From positions 9,132-73,131 of the forward strand of contig JAHDEJ010000009.1 of NCBI GenBank assembly GCA_020628865.1: DNA of 64,000 nucleotides. Direction: 5' to 3'. The stretch comes from Acidimicrobiales bacterium (lineage in GTDB: Bacteria > Actinomycetota > Acidimicrobiia > Acidimicrobiales > SHLQ01). The notes under the pieces are model-generated. The model was not told the origin of the DNA, searched no databases, and worked only from the letters and a program-made list of their open reading frames with translations. The position numbers and the translations under genes were made by a program. Of the stretch, positions 42,333 to 62,506 are shown in pieces; within the stretch, counting starts at the first letter, position 1; each line of letters opens with the position of its first letter.

Positions 42333-42422
42333 GGAGAGATGGCAGAGCGGACGATTGCGTCGGTCTTGAAAACCGTTGGGCCCTCACGGGTCCCGGGGGT
42401 TCGAATCCCCCTCTCTCCGCCA
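42333..42422 (+). tRNA. tRNA-Ser (anticodon TGA) with encoded CCA; island attachment locus
   Basis: The gene starts GGAGAGATGGCAGAGCGG, has anticodon loop CTTGAAA, a long variable arm (TTGGGCCCTCACGGGTCCC), T-arm GGGGGTTCGAATCCCCC and acceptor TCTCTCC plus discriminator G, followed by an encoded CCA (42420-42422). Its last six bases, CCGCCA, recur at three places at the right end of the downstream island. Confidence 0.95.
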
Positions 42423-42980
42423 AAAGCTGCTCTACCGAACACGCTTCAGAGAAGACCCGAGTCAACCAGCTCGGGTCTTTTCTGTTGCACGGATAGTTTC
42501 TACGGTCTCGCTGGACAGCTCCGACGGCTTGGCTGATGGTGCAGCGTGCCGCTCCGTCATTGACCGGGCCTGCTGCTCCGTGGGCGGAGATGAGCATGGT
42601 GATTGGATCGGCGTGCTCCCATTCGACCACGCCGTCCTCGGTAACAAGGATCCGCTTGAACAGGGCTTGATTGATCTGACGGCGGATGTTCTCGTCGCCG
42701 GCCTCGTAGCAGCTGCTGGCGAGCTTCACCAGCATTGTTGATGGTGGCTTCGATCTGTTCGGCCGTGTACTCGGTTCGTGCGAGCGCGGCCTCGGCCGCT
42801 CGCATCTCGTCGGCGATCCGATCTTGTTCCTTCTTCAGCAGGTCAAGCGCCACAGCGCCGGCGCAGTGGGCTTGCAGCAGTTTGGTTCGTTGATCATCGA
42901 GCCGAAGCATCCGTTCTTGGGTCCGGCGCCGCTGCTCTTGGACGTCGTCTTGTGCAGCTGAGATTTCGTAGCGCACTGCG
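42423..42980 (-). pseudogene. Remnant of a serine-recombinase C-terminus (left copy), frameshifted
   Basis: On the minus strand a coiled-coil part (LDLLKKEQDRIADEMRAAEAALARTEYTAEQIEATIN) and the terminal part (GDENIRRQINQALFKRILVTEDGVVEWEHADPI) lie in different frames with a shift near 42720. Both are typical of the C-terminal region of large serine recombinases. The catalytic N-terminal domain is absent. Translation of the second part runs through the terminator and into tRNA-Ser without a stop, so the original 3' end has been replaced. Confidence 0.7.
42452..42479. terminator. Bidirectional terminator after tRNA-Ser
   Basis: AAGACCCGAG / CTCGGGTCTT stem of 10 bp with an 8-base loop, followed by TTTCTG on the plus strand. 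It serves tRNA-Ser. A near-identical copy lies at 61987-62014. Confidence 0.8.
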
Positions 42981-43221
42981 GACGCTGTCTCGACAGATCC
43001 CTCACCCCACAATGGTCCCACAGGACCGGCTGGTGATCCCCGCGGCTGCTGGACTCTGCTCAGCCTGAGCGACGGATGTCCGAACGGATTCCGCTCATGG
43101 ACGCGCGGCATCGGCTCGCAGAGCCTCAGTCACCGTTGACAGATCGATAGCGATGTGCCGTTGCTAGGTGGCTCCCGAGACATCTAGGCGACCCAGGAAC
43201 GCCCAAACAGGTCGCGAATAG

Positions 43222-44613
43222 GTGGCTGCGTTCAGGCAGACTGGTGTCGTGTTGCGAAGATGGTTCACCAAGTCGGGGTGGCAGCAAGCGAGGGCTGATC
43301 GAGGCGTACGGCGCGCGCAGAGAAAGGCGCAGAAAGCAAAGCGTGCGGCCGCATCGGAGATGAGCCGTTCCGCCTATGAGCAGTTTGCCCGGGGAATTCA
43401 CCCGGATTCCTTCGTATCGATCCAGCTTCCTAGCAGTGAAGGCAACAGAAACTATGCGGCCCAGGGCCTTAACGAGGCACAGGCCAACGGCACCTTCAAC
43501 GTCGACATGCGCGTTGATCCAGGGAGCGCGTCTCCGAAGACTTCCTCGTACACGATTCGTGCAAGGTATCTCGGCCAGCAACAGCTACGAGCACCGATCG
43601 GTGAGCTCGCCGTCGGCGATACTGTGGAGATACCAACAGACGAGGGCCCGCTGGCCGGGCTCGTCGGCCGTATCGACCACCAGTCCGCTGGGATGAAGAT
43701 CAAGAGCTTTCCGTACAAGGGTCCGTGTGGGGAAGCGTGGACGGGTTGGCTCGTGACGACACCGCACCTCCTCCTTACCTTGAATGACTGCATCTTCGGT
43801 TCCGGCAGTGGTAGCCGCAGTGATGACCGACACCTGATGGAGGCCGCCATCGCTGAGATGCGCCTCTCCACGGCTACACCCAAGGTCGGAGCGGTGATCG
43901 CAGACGCCAGTGGTGAGGTAGTAGCCGCCGCGTACAAAGTGAAGACCGAGGGGATCGACGCACACGCTGAGAGAATCGCTCTTGATCAGCTTGACGATGA
44001 GGTTCAGCGCCCCCTGACTCTGTTCACGACCCTCGAGCCTTGCACCGACACCAAGAGCAACTGCGCTCAGGCGATCATCGACGCCGGCATCGAGACCGTC
44101 GTAATCGGCCGATACGACATGAACACGAAGATCAACCTCAAAGGTAAGCAGGCGCTCCAACGGGGCGGCATAGCCACTCGCGACTTCGACGCTGATCTCC
44201 GGAACCGTTGTGACGACATCAACTCCGAGGCGGTGCTCCAGTACCAGAAGAAGGTCGGCCCAACCGGTCACGGGAAGTATGGCTACACCGCAAACGGCAC
44301 TCAGGGGGTGCTCTCGATCAGATTCTCGGGTACCGACGCCCGCATGATCGGGATGGCCTTCAGCGACAGGGACGAGCAATCGGTGTACGCCTGGGGGAGA
44401 AACGGAGTTCAAGTCGCGAGCACAGGCGCCCACACGTTTTCCGAAATCGACGACCCAACGGCCTACGACGCTGGCTTCTCACACCAAGCCGCGGTCAAGA
44501 AAGGGGAAATCGCCATCTTCAACACCGACGATGGTGCGATCCTTGTTCACATCAAGAAGATCCACGCAGCCGAGCACGCTGTTACATTCAGGTTCGAGGT
44601 CCGACCTCGATGA
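43222..44613 (+). CDS. RibD-like cytidine-deaminase-fold protein with extra N- and C-terminal domains
   Basis: 463 residues from GTG 43222 (GTG 43249 also possible). Basic helical N-terminus, an unknown beta-rich domain (about 65-185), a deaminase domain (about 200-325) and an unknown C-terminal domain (about 345-463). The zinc motifs are HAE (248-250) and PC...C (C274, C281): VGAVIADASGEVVAAAY, DAHAERIAL, TTLEPCTDTKSNCAQAIIDAGIETVVIG. Spacing and the following GKQALQRGGI segment are RibD-like rather than CDA-like. Not next to riboflavin genes; nucleotide or RNA/DNA base deamination for defence or conflict is possible but unproven. Confidence 0.75.
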   Translation: MAAFRQTGVVLRRWFTKSGWQQARADRGVRRAQRKAQKAKRAAASEMSRSAYEQFARGIHPDSFVSIQLPSSEGNRNYAAQGLNEAQANGTFNVDMRVDPGSASPKTSSYTIRARYLGQQQLRAPIGELAVGDTVEIPTDEGPLAGLVGRIDHQSAGMKIKSFPYKGPCGEAWTGWLVTTPHLLLTLNDCIFGSGSGSRSDDRHLMEAAIAEMRLSTATPKVGAVIADASGEVVAAAYKVKTEGIDAHAERIALDQLDDEVQRPLTLFTTLEPCTDTKSNCAQAIIDAGIETVVIGRYDMNTKINLKGKQALQRGGIATRDFDADLRNRCDDINSEAVLQYQKKVGPTGHGKYGYTANGTQGVLSIRFSGTDARMIGMAFSDRDEQSVYAWGRNGVQVASTGAHTFSEIDDPTAYDAGFSHQAAVKKGEIAIFNTDDGAILVHIKKIHAAEHAVTFRFEVRPR

Positions 44614-48529: not shown

Positions 48530-50114
48530 TCAATCGGCTTCCTCCCATTTGGTAGCGCCGTCGATCTCATTCGCTTCGAGAGTTTCTATTTGCCAGGTGG
48601 CGTCGGATTCGTTGCGGACGGCGAAGAGGAGCCGTCGGCCGTCGGTGCGGATGTTGACGAGGCCGTAGACGAGGTTGTCGACGATGAGGGCGCTTGCGAG
48701 TGGTTGGTTCTCGGAGAAGTCGTCGTCGTTGTCGGTGTCGAGCACGACCCGGGAGCGGCTAACTCGCGTCGAGCCCAGTCGATTCTGTTCTTCGCCGGTC
48801 GGGTGGCCCCATTGTTGGGGTTGGTTGTATTCGACGAGTCGTTCGGTTCGGCCGAATCCGTAGGAGCGAGCCATTTCGGTGTTGTAGATCAAGGGTGCCT
48901 TGATTGGATGTCCGGTACGGACGACTCGGCTTGTGAGAGCGGTCGCACCAAGTAGTTGCGGCCTTGGATGGTCATGACTGTTCGAGTCGCCCGATGAGAT
49001 GATCGTGGCGAGCGGCGATGTCATCGCGAGGAAGTCCCAATCAACATGGTGTGATCCGTGATGGCAGGCTTTGGCCACGTCGACCGCCCATTGCTCGCGG
49101 ACGGCGTTGGTTGGGATCGGTCAGCCCGTTGATGTGGCGGAGAACTGCCCGTTGGGCTTTGTCGTTGAGGTCCCCGGCGAGAAGGAAACTGCGGTCGCCG
49201 TAGTCGAGCCGGAGGCTGACAGAGTGACCGTTCTTGTTCTCTCCACCGTTGCCGACATCTTCCAAGCCGGGGACTCCTGCGATGTCGGCTTCGATCGGGC
49301 CCAATACCGAGATGGCCACGTCGCTCCCGGATCCGGGGGTGCCGGCGAATCCGGCTAGATGGCCGGTCAGTTGGGACACCCGTTCGAACTGGGTTGGCGC
49401 ACCGGCCATTGTTCGGCTGGCGAGTGCCCGCTCGACTGTCGTTCGCCATCGTGGTGTGAGTCGGGGAACGCCGCCGGTTCCGTCGACGGCGGCTTGTGCG
49501 GATGTCCGGTCGTCGATGAGATCAACGAAATGGCCTTGACGCTTCTCGCCGAGGCCGTCGGTGCCGGACGTTCTGGGGCTGAGCCCAGGGTGTATGAATC
49601 GTTCGACTGTGGTCTGGTCGGTGTCGAGGCCGACCCGTTCGTCGCCGGCGCTCAGCAGATCGCTGAGTCCACCAAAATGGTCTTGGTCGGCGTGAGAGCA
49701 GACCATCACGTCCAAGTTCACCTGGGTGGGTGTCGACCGGTCGGTGCGGTAGTCCTTATGGAACTTCCAATCGACAAAGTCGGCGGCGTTCCGTTTGGTT
49801 GGCTGGAAACGGCGAAGGTTCCCGCCGTCGATCATGATCTGATGACCCTCCGGGGTCACGATCAGAATCCCGTCGCCTTGTCCGACATCAATGATGTAGA
49901 CCTCGAGCAGCGGATTATCCCCCAACAAGGCCCCATCGATCACGCCGACCCGGCCACGCGCCGATACCCGCACTCGGCCGCCGCCAACGTTGTCGTCAAG
50001 GACGCGGACTCGGTCGCCCCACAACAGATGACAACCATCGGTCAACTCGACCGAGTCGGCTGTGATCACTTTGTCCCAATAGTCGCCTCGGACTGGTGCA
50101 GGCACTCTGTCCAC
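48530..50114 (-). pseudogene. ComEC-like MBL-fold hydrolase, broken by one frameshift
   Basis: Two minus-strand frames together encode one protein of about 525 residues. The 5' part (50114 to about 49115) has VYIIDVGQGDGILIVTPEGHQIMIDGG, CSHADQDHFGGL and SFLLAGDLNDKAQRAVL; the 3' part continues with AVDVAKACHHGSHHVDWDFL, the fourth metal motif. Removing one base of the GGG at 49113-49115 restores a continuous reading through TDPTNAVREQWAVDV. Such MBL proteins are soluble relatives of the competence nuclease domain of ComEC. It may be a real pseudogene or a sequencing error. Confidence 0.75.
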
Positions 50115-59331: not shown

Positions 59332-59646
59332 CACAGGACTGCTCCACCAAGGCCGAGCGGCACGAGGCTCTGGGTCAAGCGGCACAAGAGCACGTGCGGC
59401 TGACGATCTGTCCGCCAGGGACCGAAGCAATCGAATCATCGCCGACCATGGTCCACGGCCAACAAGGACAAGCTGAACGCAGCGTTCATCCTTGTCGCCA
59501 AGGTTCGACGAGGAGAAGAAACGATCGCGACAACTGAACACAGAGTGCGACGAATGGGACCGCGTAGCGTGACGCGATAGAGCCTCAGCAGAGGAAATCC
59601 TATGATTCTGGCGGCGGGCGGAATTTCGAACGTTGTCCCAGGAGGG
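59332..59646. other. Gap before the first cassette leader
   Basis: No supported gene. Its right end carries TTCGAA (59624-59629) and 16 bases later CCGCCA (59647-59652), the first of three cassette-type junctions. Confidence 0.55.
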
Positions 59647-59831
59647 CCGCCAGGATAGAACAAATGTTCGGTTCTGACCGAAGTTACACCGCACCGTCAG
59701 GTGTGGTGTTTCACGTTTCGCCCGTGTTGACAACAAAACAGCTGATGGTCTCCCACCCCTGTTGACGGGGTTTGAAAGACATCCCACTTTGAGCGACCGG
59801 TACACCATGAGACAATGAATGCCTAAGGAGT
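59647..59831 (+). repeat. 185-bp structured leader, copy 1 (promoter and ribosome site)
   Basis: Identical, base for base, to 61215-61399. Three stem-loops: TTCGG/CCGAA (59667-59682), ACACCGCACC/GGTGTGGTGT (59686-59709, one mismatch) and ACCCC/GGGGT (59755-59771). A weak promoter TTTGAG-N17-GACAAT (59788-59816) and a ribosome site AAGGAG (59825-59830) precede the first gene. It starts with CCGCCA. Confidence 0.85.
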
Positions 59832-59842
59832 GACATGTACCG

Positions 59843-60298
59843 GTGCCGCGTCTTTCTCACAACACCTACTGCGAGCTTCGCTCGTTCTTAGCCAGCGCCT
59901 GGGATCAAGACCAGACGCTCTTCGCCCTTGTCTGTGGAGCAGACCAATGGGACGTGCACAGATTCTTCGCACCGACAGTCGACCTCACTGACCAGGAACT
60001 CCGTGCTCACCGAATCAAGGTCTCCACAGCAGACCCCTCACTCCCCAGTCGAGCCAGCAAGCTCGCCCGCAAGATGCACCGCTTCCACAATGCCGCCAAG
60101 CACCTCCCCAAGGAGGCCTACCGACCTGCAGTCTTCAAACACTCGAGCCAAGGAAGCCCGATCTCAGTCCGGGCCATCATGAACCCAGAACCAAACTACC
60201 GGTTGCTCGCCAAGGCCTTCATCTCACTAGCTGAAGCACAACTAGCCGAGCAACGAAGCGACGACGGTCAGACCTTGGTCGACGGGAAGGAGGTATAG
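59843..60298 (+). CDS. Cassette A gene 1, unknown function
   Basis: 151 residues from GTG 59843, 12 bases after AAGGAG. Soluble, basic and His-rich: YCELRSFLASAWDQDQTLFALVCGADQWDVHRFFAPTVDLTDQELRAHR, then SRASKLARKMHRFHNAAKHLPKEAYRP. No signal peptide or recognised fold. It ends 4 bp before the next gene, so the two act as a unit. Confidence 0.6.
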   Translation: MPRLSHNTYCELRSFLASAWDQDQTLFALVCGADQWDVHRFFAPTVDLTDQELRAHRIKVSTADPSLPSRASKLARKMHRFHNAAKHLPKEAYRPAVFKHSSQGSPISVRAIMNPEPNYRLLAKAFISLAEAQLAEQRSDDGQTLVDGKEV

Positions 60299-60302
60299 CG
60301 AG

Positions 60303-61178
60303 ATGCCGAACAAGACCGGCACAAGTTGGAAGGTCTACGCAGCGGTCTGCGATGTCTCCCCATCCGAGCAGCTCACGGGTGACGATGATGCACTGCTTCA
60401 CTTGGCAATAGTCATGGGCTTACACTCCCGCTCCTCGTTCGATCAGGTAGGTGACGCGTACCACGATGAGAAACATTGTCTCGCGCTGAGGAAGTGGTCA
60501 GGGTCGAGACCGCCGTACCGTCACAAGTTCGTCACCGCTGCCACTGCCTGGAAACAAAACAGCCACGTGATGTTCGGTCGCGAAGTCATCGACCAACGAA
60601 CCGTGCGAAGGGTGGGAGCAGTCTTCTTCCAGCAACACCTGGGGCCGTTCGGTGACCCGTCTTCATACAGCAAGAAGGGCAAACCTCGCGTTCGCATCGG
60701 AGGACGAAGTGACGCTGGGCTTCCGGTGCTGTCCTACGAGGTTCTTATCGACGATCTCTGTGTGATCGGGTGGTACGGCAATGCACTCACGGAGCTTCAT
60801 CGCTTGCTAGTCGAAACCAACCATGAACCAGCCGGCCACGAACAACCAGAGATTCGACTGGAGATTCTGATCGACAACCTCCCGAACGAAAAAGGTGGCG
60901 AGGACAACTACAAAGCGAACCTCCTGCGGAGTCTCGTCCTGAAAGCCACGAATGGCGGAGCAGAGATCATCGGCGTCCCCGAAAATTCCGACACCAAGAA
61001 CCGCGATCTGCTGGTCGACAACCTTGCAGGACTGGTGCGAGAGCTAGAAAGCGGAACCTTCACTGGTGATCAAGCCACTGCAAACGCTCTCTTCAGCTTC
61101 AGTCGCCGCAACTCGGGTCTCGGCAACAGCCAGCAACCTCCTCCTGGGGCACGAACAGCTGGCCGCCGAACTACTTGA
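60303..61178 (+). CDS. Cassette A gene 2, unknown function
   Basis: 291 residues. A mixed alpha/beta chain with acidic positions at strand ends (WKVYAAVCDVS; LEILIDNLPNEKGGEDNYKANLLRSLVLKATNGGAEIIGVPENSDTKNRDLLVDNLAGLVREL). The strand-Asp pattern and the final LLVDNLAG helix recall RNase H-like DUF3800 proteins, but key motifs are not certain. An AAGGAGGT ribosome site (60287-60294) sits inside the end of gene 1. Confidence 0.6.
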   Translation: MPNKTGTSWKVYAAVCDVSPSEQLTGDDDALLHLAIVMGLHSRSSFDQVGDAYHDEKHCLALRKWSGSRPPYRHKFVTAATAWKQNSHVMFGREVIDQRTVRRVGAVFFQQHLGPFGDPSSYSKKGKPRVRIGGRSDAGLPVLSYEVLIDDLCVIGWYGNALTELHRLLVETNHEPAGHEQPEIRLEILIDNLPNEKGGEDNYKANLLRSLVLKATNGGAEIIGVPENSDTKNRDLLVDNLAGLVRELESGTFTGDQATANALFSFSRRNSGLGNSQQPPPGARTAGRRTT

Positions 61179-61188
61179 ATTCATCCGA

Positions 61189-61220
61189 AGGGTTCGAAAG
61201 AGATCGCAAGACCTCCGCCA
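61189..61220 (+). repeat. Cassette junction, 32-bp repeat copy 1
   Basis: Reads AGGGTTCGAAAGAG...CCTCCGCCA. A perfect copy lies at 61926-61957. TTCGAA and CCGCCA are separated by 16 bases, as at 59624-59652. The T-arm TTCGAA and 3'-end CCGCCA of tRNA-Ser are separated by 11. Confidence 0.8.
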
Positions 61221-61399
61221 GGATAGAACAAATGTTCGGTTCTGACCGAAGTTACACCGCACCGTCAGGTGTGGTGTTTCACGTTTCGCCCGTGTTGACA
61301 ACAAAACAGCTGATGGTCTCCCACCCCTGTTGACGGGGTTTGAAAGACATCCCACTTTGAGCGACCGGTACACCATGAGACAATGAATGCCTAAGGAGT
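61215..61399 (+). repeat. 185-bp structured leader, copy 2
   Basis: Perfect copy of 59647-59831, 1568 bp downstream, with the same hairpins, promoter-like sequence and AAGGAG (61393-61398). Identity stops one base past the ribosome site, exactly where the coding cargo begins to differ. Confidence 0.85.
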
Positions 61400-61406
61400 A
61401 GCCCCT

Positions 61407-61889
61407 GTGAGCAATACAGAAAACGACAACTCTAGCTCTCGACGAGTTGTCCCAGCTATTGAGCTAATTCGAACCGACGAAGAGCGCCGAGATCAAGAGT
61501 TGTCGTGGCGAAGAGCAGACGATGCGTTCTTCGCTGCTGGTGCATGTCACATTCTTGCATTCACCTTTGCAGAGATGAACCCTGATTCAAAGATCATGTT
61601 CATTCGCCCAACTGACGACTCAATCTTCGGTATGCACGTGTTCGCAGTGCAGGACGGTCGTGCGCTTGACTTCAACGGGTGGAGCGATGTTGGTGAGCTA
61701 ATTAGAGTGAATCTTACCGCGTGCTGCAAAGAACGCCCCGAGTGCAAGCTCGAGGTCATTGAGATCAATGGCGACCTAGAAACCTTCTGTGAACAGAACC
61801 GTCATCGAAAGCCAGATGAATTCTTCGCCGATCCGAGACCACGAGCTCGGCAGTATCTGAAATCACTCCTAGGGCCAGCAGATAGCTAG
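61407..61889 (+). CDS. Cassette B gene, possible papain-like/transglutaminase-fold protein
   Basis: 160 residues from GTG 61407, 8 bases after AAGGAG. The core reads AGACHILAFTFAEMNP...FGMHVFAVQDGRALDFNGWSD: a Cys at the start of a helix, a His in a strand and an Asp a few residues later. This order is that of small NlpC/P60- or transglutaminase-like folds. The C-terminus is acidic and helical. The assignment is tentative. Confidence 0.6.
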   Translation: MSNTENDNSSSRRVVPAIELIRTDEERRDQELSWRRADDAFFAAGACHILAFTFAEMNPDSKIMFIRPTDDSIFGMHVFAVQDGRALDFNGWSDVGELIRVNLTACCKERPECKLEVIEINGDLETFCEQNRHRKPDEFFADPRPRARQYLKSLLGPADS

Positions 61890-61925
61890 TCCCAAACCGG
61901 AGGATCACTTCCTGAGCCTCTCGGG

Positions 61926-61957
61926 AGGGTTCGAAAGAGATCGCAAGACCTCCGCCA
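61926..61957 (+). repeat. Cassette junction, 32-bp repeat copy 2 and island right end
   Basis: Perfect copy of 61189-61220. Its right flank (AAAGCTGCTCT...) equals the sequence right after tRNA-Ser at 42423, not a leader, so it marks the right end of the island. Confidence 0.8.
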
Positions 61958-62366
61958 AAAGCTGCTCTTTCGAACACGCTTCAGGAAAGACCCGAGTCAA
62001 CCGGCTCGGGTCTTTTTTGTTGCACGGGTAGTTCCGGCGGTCTCGTTGGACTGCTCTGACCGCTTGGCTGATGGTGCAGCGTGCCGCTCCGTTGTTGACG
62101 GGTCCGGCCGCTCCGTGGGCGGACATCAGCATGGCGGTTGGTTCTGCGTACTCCCATTCGACCACGCCGTCTTCGGTGACGAGGATCCGTTTGAACAGCG
62201 CTTGGTTGATCTGACGGCGGATGCTCTCATCGCCGGCCACGTAGCTGTCGGGGCAGCTGCCAGCCAGTTTCACGGCCTTGTCGATAGTGGATTCGGTGTG
62301 CTCGACCGTGTACTCGGTGCGTGCGAGTGCTGCCTCTGCGGCCCGCATCTCATCGCCGATCCGCGC
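61958..62366 (-). pseudogene. Remnant of a serine-recombinase C-terminus (right copy)
   Basis: On the minus strand: DEMRAAEAALARTEYTVEHTESTIDKAVKLAG, then GDESIRRQINQALFKRILVTEDGVVEWEYAEPTAML. It is in one frame, unlike the left copy, but is cut off upstream of DEMRAAE, where the two copies diverge. Translation runs through the CCGCCA junction with no stop until 61905, so the gene's 3' end spans the attachment point. Confidence 0.7.
61987..62014. terminator. Second copy of the tRNA-Ser terminator
   Basis: AAGACCCGAG / CTCGGGTCTT with an 8-base loop, followed by TTTT. Same as 42452-42479. Confidence 0.75.
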
Positions 62367-62386
62367 TGGCCGAAATGGTGTGCAAC

Positions 62387-62506
62387 CTACCGTGCATCCT
62401 TCCTGATGTGAAGCTCCATTTCCGCCTCGAGGAACTGCACGCCGGGCTTGAGCCAGGCGCATTCAAGGCTGACGTAGTCGGAAGAACCGCGTCGTAGCGA
62501 CAACAT
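62387..62506 (-). CDS. Possible 39-residue protein or C-terminal gene fragment
   Basis: From ATG 62506: MLSLRRGSSDYVSLECAWLK then a segment ending MELHIRKDAR. The composition looks like a protein C-terminus rather than random sequence. It abuts the point where the recombinase remnant breaks off, so it may be debris of the recombination. Confidence 0.3.
   Translation of the reverse strand: MLSLRRGSSDYVSLECAWLKPGVQFLEAEMELHIRKDAR

Follow-up and report, generated by a model that had tools for sequence, protein, structure and literature searches.

Small recombinase-free units joined at serine recombinase-type half-sites in a tRNA-Ser island of an Acidimicrobiales bacterium

Organization of the island

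We analysed a window of 64,000 nucleotides from contig JAHDEJ010000009.1 of an Acidimicrobiales assembly (GCA_020628865.1). The window contains a tRNA-Ser(tga) gene, two remnants of large serine recombinase (LSR) genes and a short array of open reading frames (Table 1). When the left halves of the junctions are designated B, P1 and P2 and the right halves P'a, leader and P'b, the order of the features is tRNA B/P'a-rec1 remnant ... P1/leader-ORF1-ORF2-P2/leader-ORF3-P2/P'b-rec2 remnant. Two recombinase-free tandem units, cassette 1 and cassette 2, lie between two decayed LSR elements.

The right flank of tRNA-Ser(tga) was found to differ in each family member that we compared. In genomes G010 and G017, a tRNA-Ser(gct) gene follows after 0.5-0.7 kb, and it lies 36 kb away here. 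In a close relative (G014; C348, L212 ~1767), 97-99% identity extends to the CCGC of tRNA-Ser(tga), beyond which the terminator differs, indicating that the element supplies the CA end of the tRNA. A site at C54:78330 (TCCGAA-N16-CCGCCA) is, by its PWM score, a weak candidate for the right end of the island. Two other genes in the window were noted: positions 43222-44613, inside the island, encode a 463-aa protein that carries a dCMP/RibD-type deaminase domain and weakly matches models of anti-phage dCTP deaminases, and positions 48530-50114 (minus strand) hold an apparently frameshift-split MBL-fold gene, matched in PADLOC by the LmuA and RT-associated MBL models.

None of ORF1-3 could be confidently named in searches of Pfam, PHROGs, PADLOC and NCBIfam. 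Searches for relatives of ORF1 among viral contigs, among phages and, its own genome excepted, in 248 genomes of the order gave none, and ORF2 had none in phages or plasmids. The AlphaFold models were of low confidence (pLDDT 36 for ORF2 and 52 for ORF3).

Table 1. Features of the tRNA-Ser island (window coordinates).
Feature	Position	Strand	Basis and remarks
tRNA-Ser(tga)	42333..42422	+	ARAGORN and sequence; 3' end TTCGAA-N11-CCGCCA, attB half (B)
P'a half-site (decayed, ACCGAAC), terminator-like hairpin, rec1 LSR C-terminal remnant	42423..43111	-	LSR residues ~361-503 only, in two frames
P1 half-site and core CCGCCA, junction 1	59625..59652	+	motif search
Leader copy 1, core to AAGGAGT just upstream of ORF1	59653..59831	+	100% identical to copy 2; diverged homologue in C57
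LexA/SOS-type operator GAACAAATGTTC, copy 1	59658..59669	+	host CGAACANNTGTTCG sites; conserved in C57
Leader hairpin, 10 bp, copy 1	59686..59709	+	folding; 10 pairs also in the diverged C57 leader
Cassette 1 ORF1, 151 aa	59843..60298	+	matches no known family; first ~11 codons homologous to C57 cassette
Cassette 1 ORF2, 291 aa	60303..61178	+	matches no known family
P2 half-site and core, junction 2, end of cassette 1 (1568 bp)	61193..61220	+	motif; same half-site in G015
Leader copy 2	61221..61399	+	100% identity to copy 1
LexA/SOS-type operator, copy 2	61226..61237	+	as copy 1
Cassette 2 ORF3, 160 aa	61407..61889	+	plasmid homologues 27-35% identical; weak YunG-like match
P2 half-site and core, junction 3, end of cassette 2 (737 bp)	61930..61957	+	motif search
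Symmetric attP-like site P2/P'b, GTTCGAAAGAG-N25-CTCTTTCGAAC	61929..61975	+	sequence and pattern search
P'b half-site, terminator-like hairpin, rec2 (second LSR) C-terminal remnant	61958..62462	-	LSR residues ~423-504

Exchange of half-sites at the junctions

The motif TTCGAA-N16-CCGCCA occurs three times in the window, and a mean of 0.05 copies was obtained in shuffled sequences, none of 100 shuffles reaching three. A first-pass annotation of this DNA had described the three junctions, which proved real and exact; its coordinates were right for the second and third, and its start of the first, 59624, was one base off. It had also reported an identical 185-bp leader behind two of the junctions, and the sequence from the first core onward (59647-59831) is indeed 100% identical over 185 nt to that at 61215-61399. 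On the left side, the second and third junctions are 100% identical over 32 nt including the core (61189-61220 and 61926-61957). The right side of the third junction resembles the sequence after the tRNA-Ser core, as had been claimed, with 90% identity over 40 nt and 88% over 296 nt. Thus the left and right halves are permuted, with the breakpoints falling exactly at the CCGCCA core. Because the halves were exchanged exactly at this core, the pattern supports site-specific accretion of two recombinase-free units.

The view that the junctions mimic a tRNA-Ser end was not sustained. The real tRNA end has a spacing of N11 and not N16, and the likeness of the junction to the tRNA-Ser end stops after some 8 nt (in the P2 copies, CTCCGCCA); the motif is instead that of an LSR attP half-site. 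Three features had been absent from the first-pass annotation, namely an 11-bp inverted repeat that flanks the third core, the serine recombinase remnants, which lie to the right of the tRNA and of the array alike, and a LexA-type box.

The junction motif and tRNA-Ser-specific LSRs

In LSR sites, the distance between the core and the zinc-ribbon (ZD) motif is 5 bp greater for attP than for attB (PMC3783163). The spacing before CCGCCA shows the same 5-bp shift, being N16 at the P junctions and N11 at the tRNA. The tRNA-Ser 3' end constitutes an attB half-site and the junction motif the matching attP half, with TTCGAA placed 5 bp outward.

Each of the four closest intact LSR relatives in the order (G001, G132, G416 and G496) converges with the 3' end of a tRNA-Ser gene. 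Pfam Resolvase, Recombinase and Zn-ribbon domains were identified in the three LSRs tested (G001, with a partial Resolvase domain, G132 and G496), and the open frame in G416 is shorter, at 284 aa. An attL geometry of TTCRAA-N11-(6)-N11-TTCGAA was observed at six loci, the closest relatives reading TTCRAA-N11-CCGCCA-N11-TTCGAA. The same geometry is found at a second LSR of the own genome, located at tRNA-Ser(cga) in C58 and either decayed or cut by the contig edge. The other end of the G416 element reads GGGTTCGAAAGC-N13-CCGC, which yields a symmetric attP, TTCGAA-N33-TTCGAA, with a 12-bp inverted repeat (L170). The third junction of the window has the same N33 spacing and inverted-repeat symmetry, with 11-bp arms. 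Given the 5-bp shift and the attL and attP geometry of these relatives, we assign TTCGAA-N16-CCGCCA, by sequence comparison, as the P half (attP half-site) of tRNA-Ser-targeting LSRs, and the recombinase would recognise TTCGAA of the tRNA T-loop as its attB motif. We do not favour a tyrosine integrase as the enzyme, since the block of identity spans no more than 6-8 bp and the spacing of the half-sites is that of LSRs.

A search of the order with the rec2 remnant detected 29 LSR loci (L139-L167). As counted from coordinates, the end of the LSR faces the 3' end of a tRNA gene at a distance of at most 250 bp in 24 of them. These tRNAs are for Ser, Ala, Val, Glu, Ile, Arg, Lys and Gly, which suggests a tRNA-targeting LSR clade. 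The first-pass annotation had proposed looking for a common recombinase; its class could be named from these comparisons, as a tRNA-Ser-specific LSR, and in this assembly it is represented by remnants only. We detected no intact LSR in this assembly, and mobility of the units is therefore presumed.

The leader and its LexA-type operator

Both leaders end in AAGGAGT, with a start codon just downstream. When the start of the leader was scanned against genome contigs, it matched SOS boxes across bacteria, which revealed a LexA box; this box, GAACAAATGTTC, starts 6 bp past the core and deviates at one position from the pattern CGAACANNTGTTCG. Eleven CGAACANNTGTTCG sites were counted in the host genome and none with a control pattern. 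They include sites upstream of imuA, dnaE2 and recA, names that were read off translations, the recA site being assigned via a frame-shifted reading. Given these host sites, the leader box is probably a LexA operator, through which the cassettes may be under LexA control. A consensus scan found no sigma-70-type promoter, so the leader is only presumed to carry a promoter.

The diverged leader of C57 can form the 10-bp hairpin as well, although both sides of several pairs have changed there. A hairpin near the core was present in all seven right halves folded, and the hairpins of the right halves that are fused to tRNA ends look like terminators.

Searches that covered up to 395 genomes of the class detected the leader in this genome only, in three copies, one of them diverged. 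The first-pass annotation had held that confinement of the leader to this place, or a constant cargo away from CCGCCA junctions, would speak against its reading; the leader is indeed confined to this genome, but it always stands at CCGCCA junctions and its cargo differs. Viral scans with the junction, leader and leader-end patterns gave no match, and the 10 matches to a looser P-half pattern all lacked the other features.

The two ends of the units differ: the P2 half-site forms the right end, while the left, leader end meets the core but has no P' motif. Because TTCGAA is absent at the P' position in the first 20 bp of the leader, P2/leader is not a canonical attP, and its use by an LSR is putative.

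Further junctions and arrays

A search with a P-half consensus, which was derived partly from sites that it then found, covered 397 genomes of the order and gave 11 sites, the window junctions included, in 6 of them, against one site with the reversed control. One match in G382 may be due to chance. Further P junctions were detected in C57 and C108 of the own genome and in G015, G645, G496 and G132. Three of these are P1 junctions of the same genome, one in C57 and two in C108 that are 811 bp apart. The C57 junction joins P1 to the diverged leader and the start of an ORF1 homologue, and the G015 half-site matches P2 at 95% over 22 nt left of the core.

A recombinase-free mini-array with other cargo was found at tRNA-Ser(gga) in G645, a genome of another family (L193, C186, 673-3036). 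The tRNA gene is followed by a 1.5-kb unit with an ABC-type ATPase (ABC transporter), and then by a unit of about 0.75 kb that has a PIN-domain gene and ends in a P1-type junction. The right end of the first unit is no more than a copy of the tRNA end, and this unit may therefore be the product of another integrase.

C57, C108 and C58 may be parts of one interrupted island. The starts of C57 (L004 1-55) and C108 (L179 1-56) have 27 nt in common that resemble the end of an insertion sequence. A separate 40-nt stretch is common to L179 2260-2299 and L216, where it follows two tRNA/junction sites, and its translation resembles a transposase C-terminus.

Origin of the array

We consider it probable that the locus is a tandem (accretion) array built by tRNA-Ser-specific LSRs. 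Circular units with a P2/leader junction, predicted to read TTCGAAAGAGATCGCAAGACCTCCGCCAGGATAGAAC, would have been inserted at an existing P/P' site by an LSR acting in trans, like cis-mobilizable elements, and this recombinase would since have decayed or been provided by another element. The permutation of the halves is observed; the circles and the acceptance of the leader half by an LSR are inferred. The leader would supply each unit with its own ribosome-binding site, hairpin and LexA-controlled promoter, so that DNA damage would switch on the cargo. Since the operator occupies the positions 6-17 bp away from the crossover core, within the expected half-site footprint of the recombinase, LexA might block recombination as well as transcription and an SOS response might release both, giving a DNA-damage-coupled, LSR-based analogue of the integron; we regard this extension as doubtful.

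Alternatively, whole LSR islands might have been stacked in tandem and lost their content by deletion, with the identical leaders arising from homologous duplication or gene conversion and not from cassette insertion. Both LSR copies are remnants, the GC content of the island is reduced and deletion is the textbook route to CIMEs, all of which fit such a history. However, duplication would not be expected to place two breakpoints exactly at a 6-bp core, nor to change the left half from P1 to P2 and the right half from the leader to P'b independently of each other. In addition, C108 (811 bp) and G645 (~0.75 kb, with the PIN domain) contain small recombinase-free units with the same half-site ends, so that a decayed composite island seems unlikely to us.

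We give still less credence, and very little in all, to the proposal that the leader is the promoter of an SOS gene at a chromosomal pseudo-attB, with CCGCCA beside a LexA box as found upstream of imuA in some relatives, and that LSR elements inserted there, so that P/leader would be an attR and not a cassette end. The leader has no P' motif and sequences like CCGCCAGTATCGAACATATGTTCG occur in the imuA and dnaE2 promoters of relatives, which fits this proposal, but the leader does not run on into imuA or dnaE2, P2 is also joined to a true P', and two identical leaders precede different cargo in one array beside tRNA-Ser. A cassette system of the integron kind, independent of serine recombinases, would account for the small units, variable cargo, fixed junctions and LexA box; it is nevertheless extremely improbable, because nothing resembling attC was noticed at the junction, the CCGCCA junction core with LSR half-sites argues against an integron, the half-site geometry and the adjoining recombinase remnants indicate LSRs, and each unit has its own leader, unlike the promoterless cassettes of integrons.

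Comparison with known systems

The staphylococcal SCC and pseudo-SCC arrays of CcrA/B/C are LSR-based tandem units, some without ccr, that target rlmH. SCC elements are recognised by a ccr gene above the family cut-off and an attB in rlmH, whereas the G496 LSR matched CcrB with a score of 93.5 (E=1e-26) against a cut-off of 900, and the target here is tRNA-Ser. With integrons, which are recognised by the tyrosine integrase IntI and attC sites and whose integrases are known to be under LexA control, the array has in common short single-gene units and variable cargo, and it differs from them in enzyme class, site architecture and the presence of a leader on each unit.

The first-pass annotation had suggested small units with different cargo that were joined at CCGCCA by site-specific recombination, and this part of its reading agrees with the halves shuffled at the core and the further cases in C57, C108, G015 and G645. 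It had also raised the possibility of an undescribed cassette-capture system, and this part was not supported: the literature already contains LSR/Ccr-type islands located at tRNA or tmRNA genes, as well as tandem islands that lack a recombinase (PMC3146451, PMC3218068, PMC5704250). The Dehalococcoides ssrA islands (DsiB, CcrB-like; PMC3146451) are likewise arranged in tandem downstream of a tRNA-like gene, with a reverse-strand serine recombinase at the left end by the target gene, and several have no integration module. They differ in their tmRNA target, rdh genes, six-gene integration module and 20-bp direct repeat, in place of which we find a 6-bp core with LSR half-sites, and the cited parts of that paper describe no SOS-type leader common to the islands. 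CIMEs formed by accretion (Pavlovic 2004, cited in PMC5704250) are also recombinase-free, att-flanked units in tandem with recombinase-bearing elements; they are described there as decayed ICEs or IMEs, whereas the units here measure 0.7-1.6 kb and have an identical leader. Serine recombinases that insert at tRNA genes have been called rare (PMC3218068) or not known (PMC4383910); phage phiRSM1 (tRNA-Ser) and Mycobacterium AICEs (tRNA-Leu) are examples, for which the cited parts of PMC3218068 report no mini-cassette arrays.

Tandem serine recombinase islands with recombinase-free members (PMC3146451) and CIME accretion (PMC5704250) were already known. What is new is the very small size of the units, the placing of one identical SOS-type leader before different cargo, and the targeting of tRNA genes across the clade. 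Such arrays can be searched for with the half-site rule and the PWM. Our results suggest that LSRs can stack units down to a single gene, each with an SOS-type leader, and that cassette arrays can be reached by LSR stacking without an integron.
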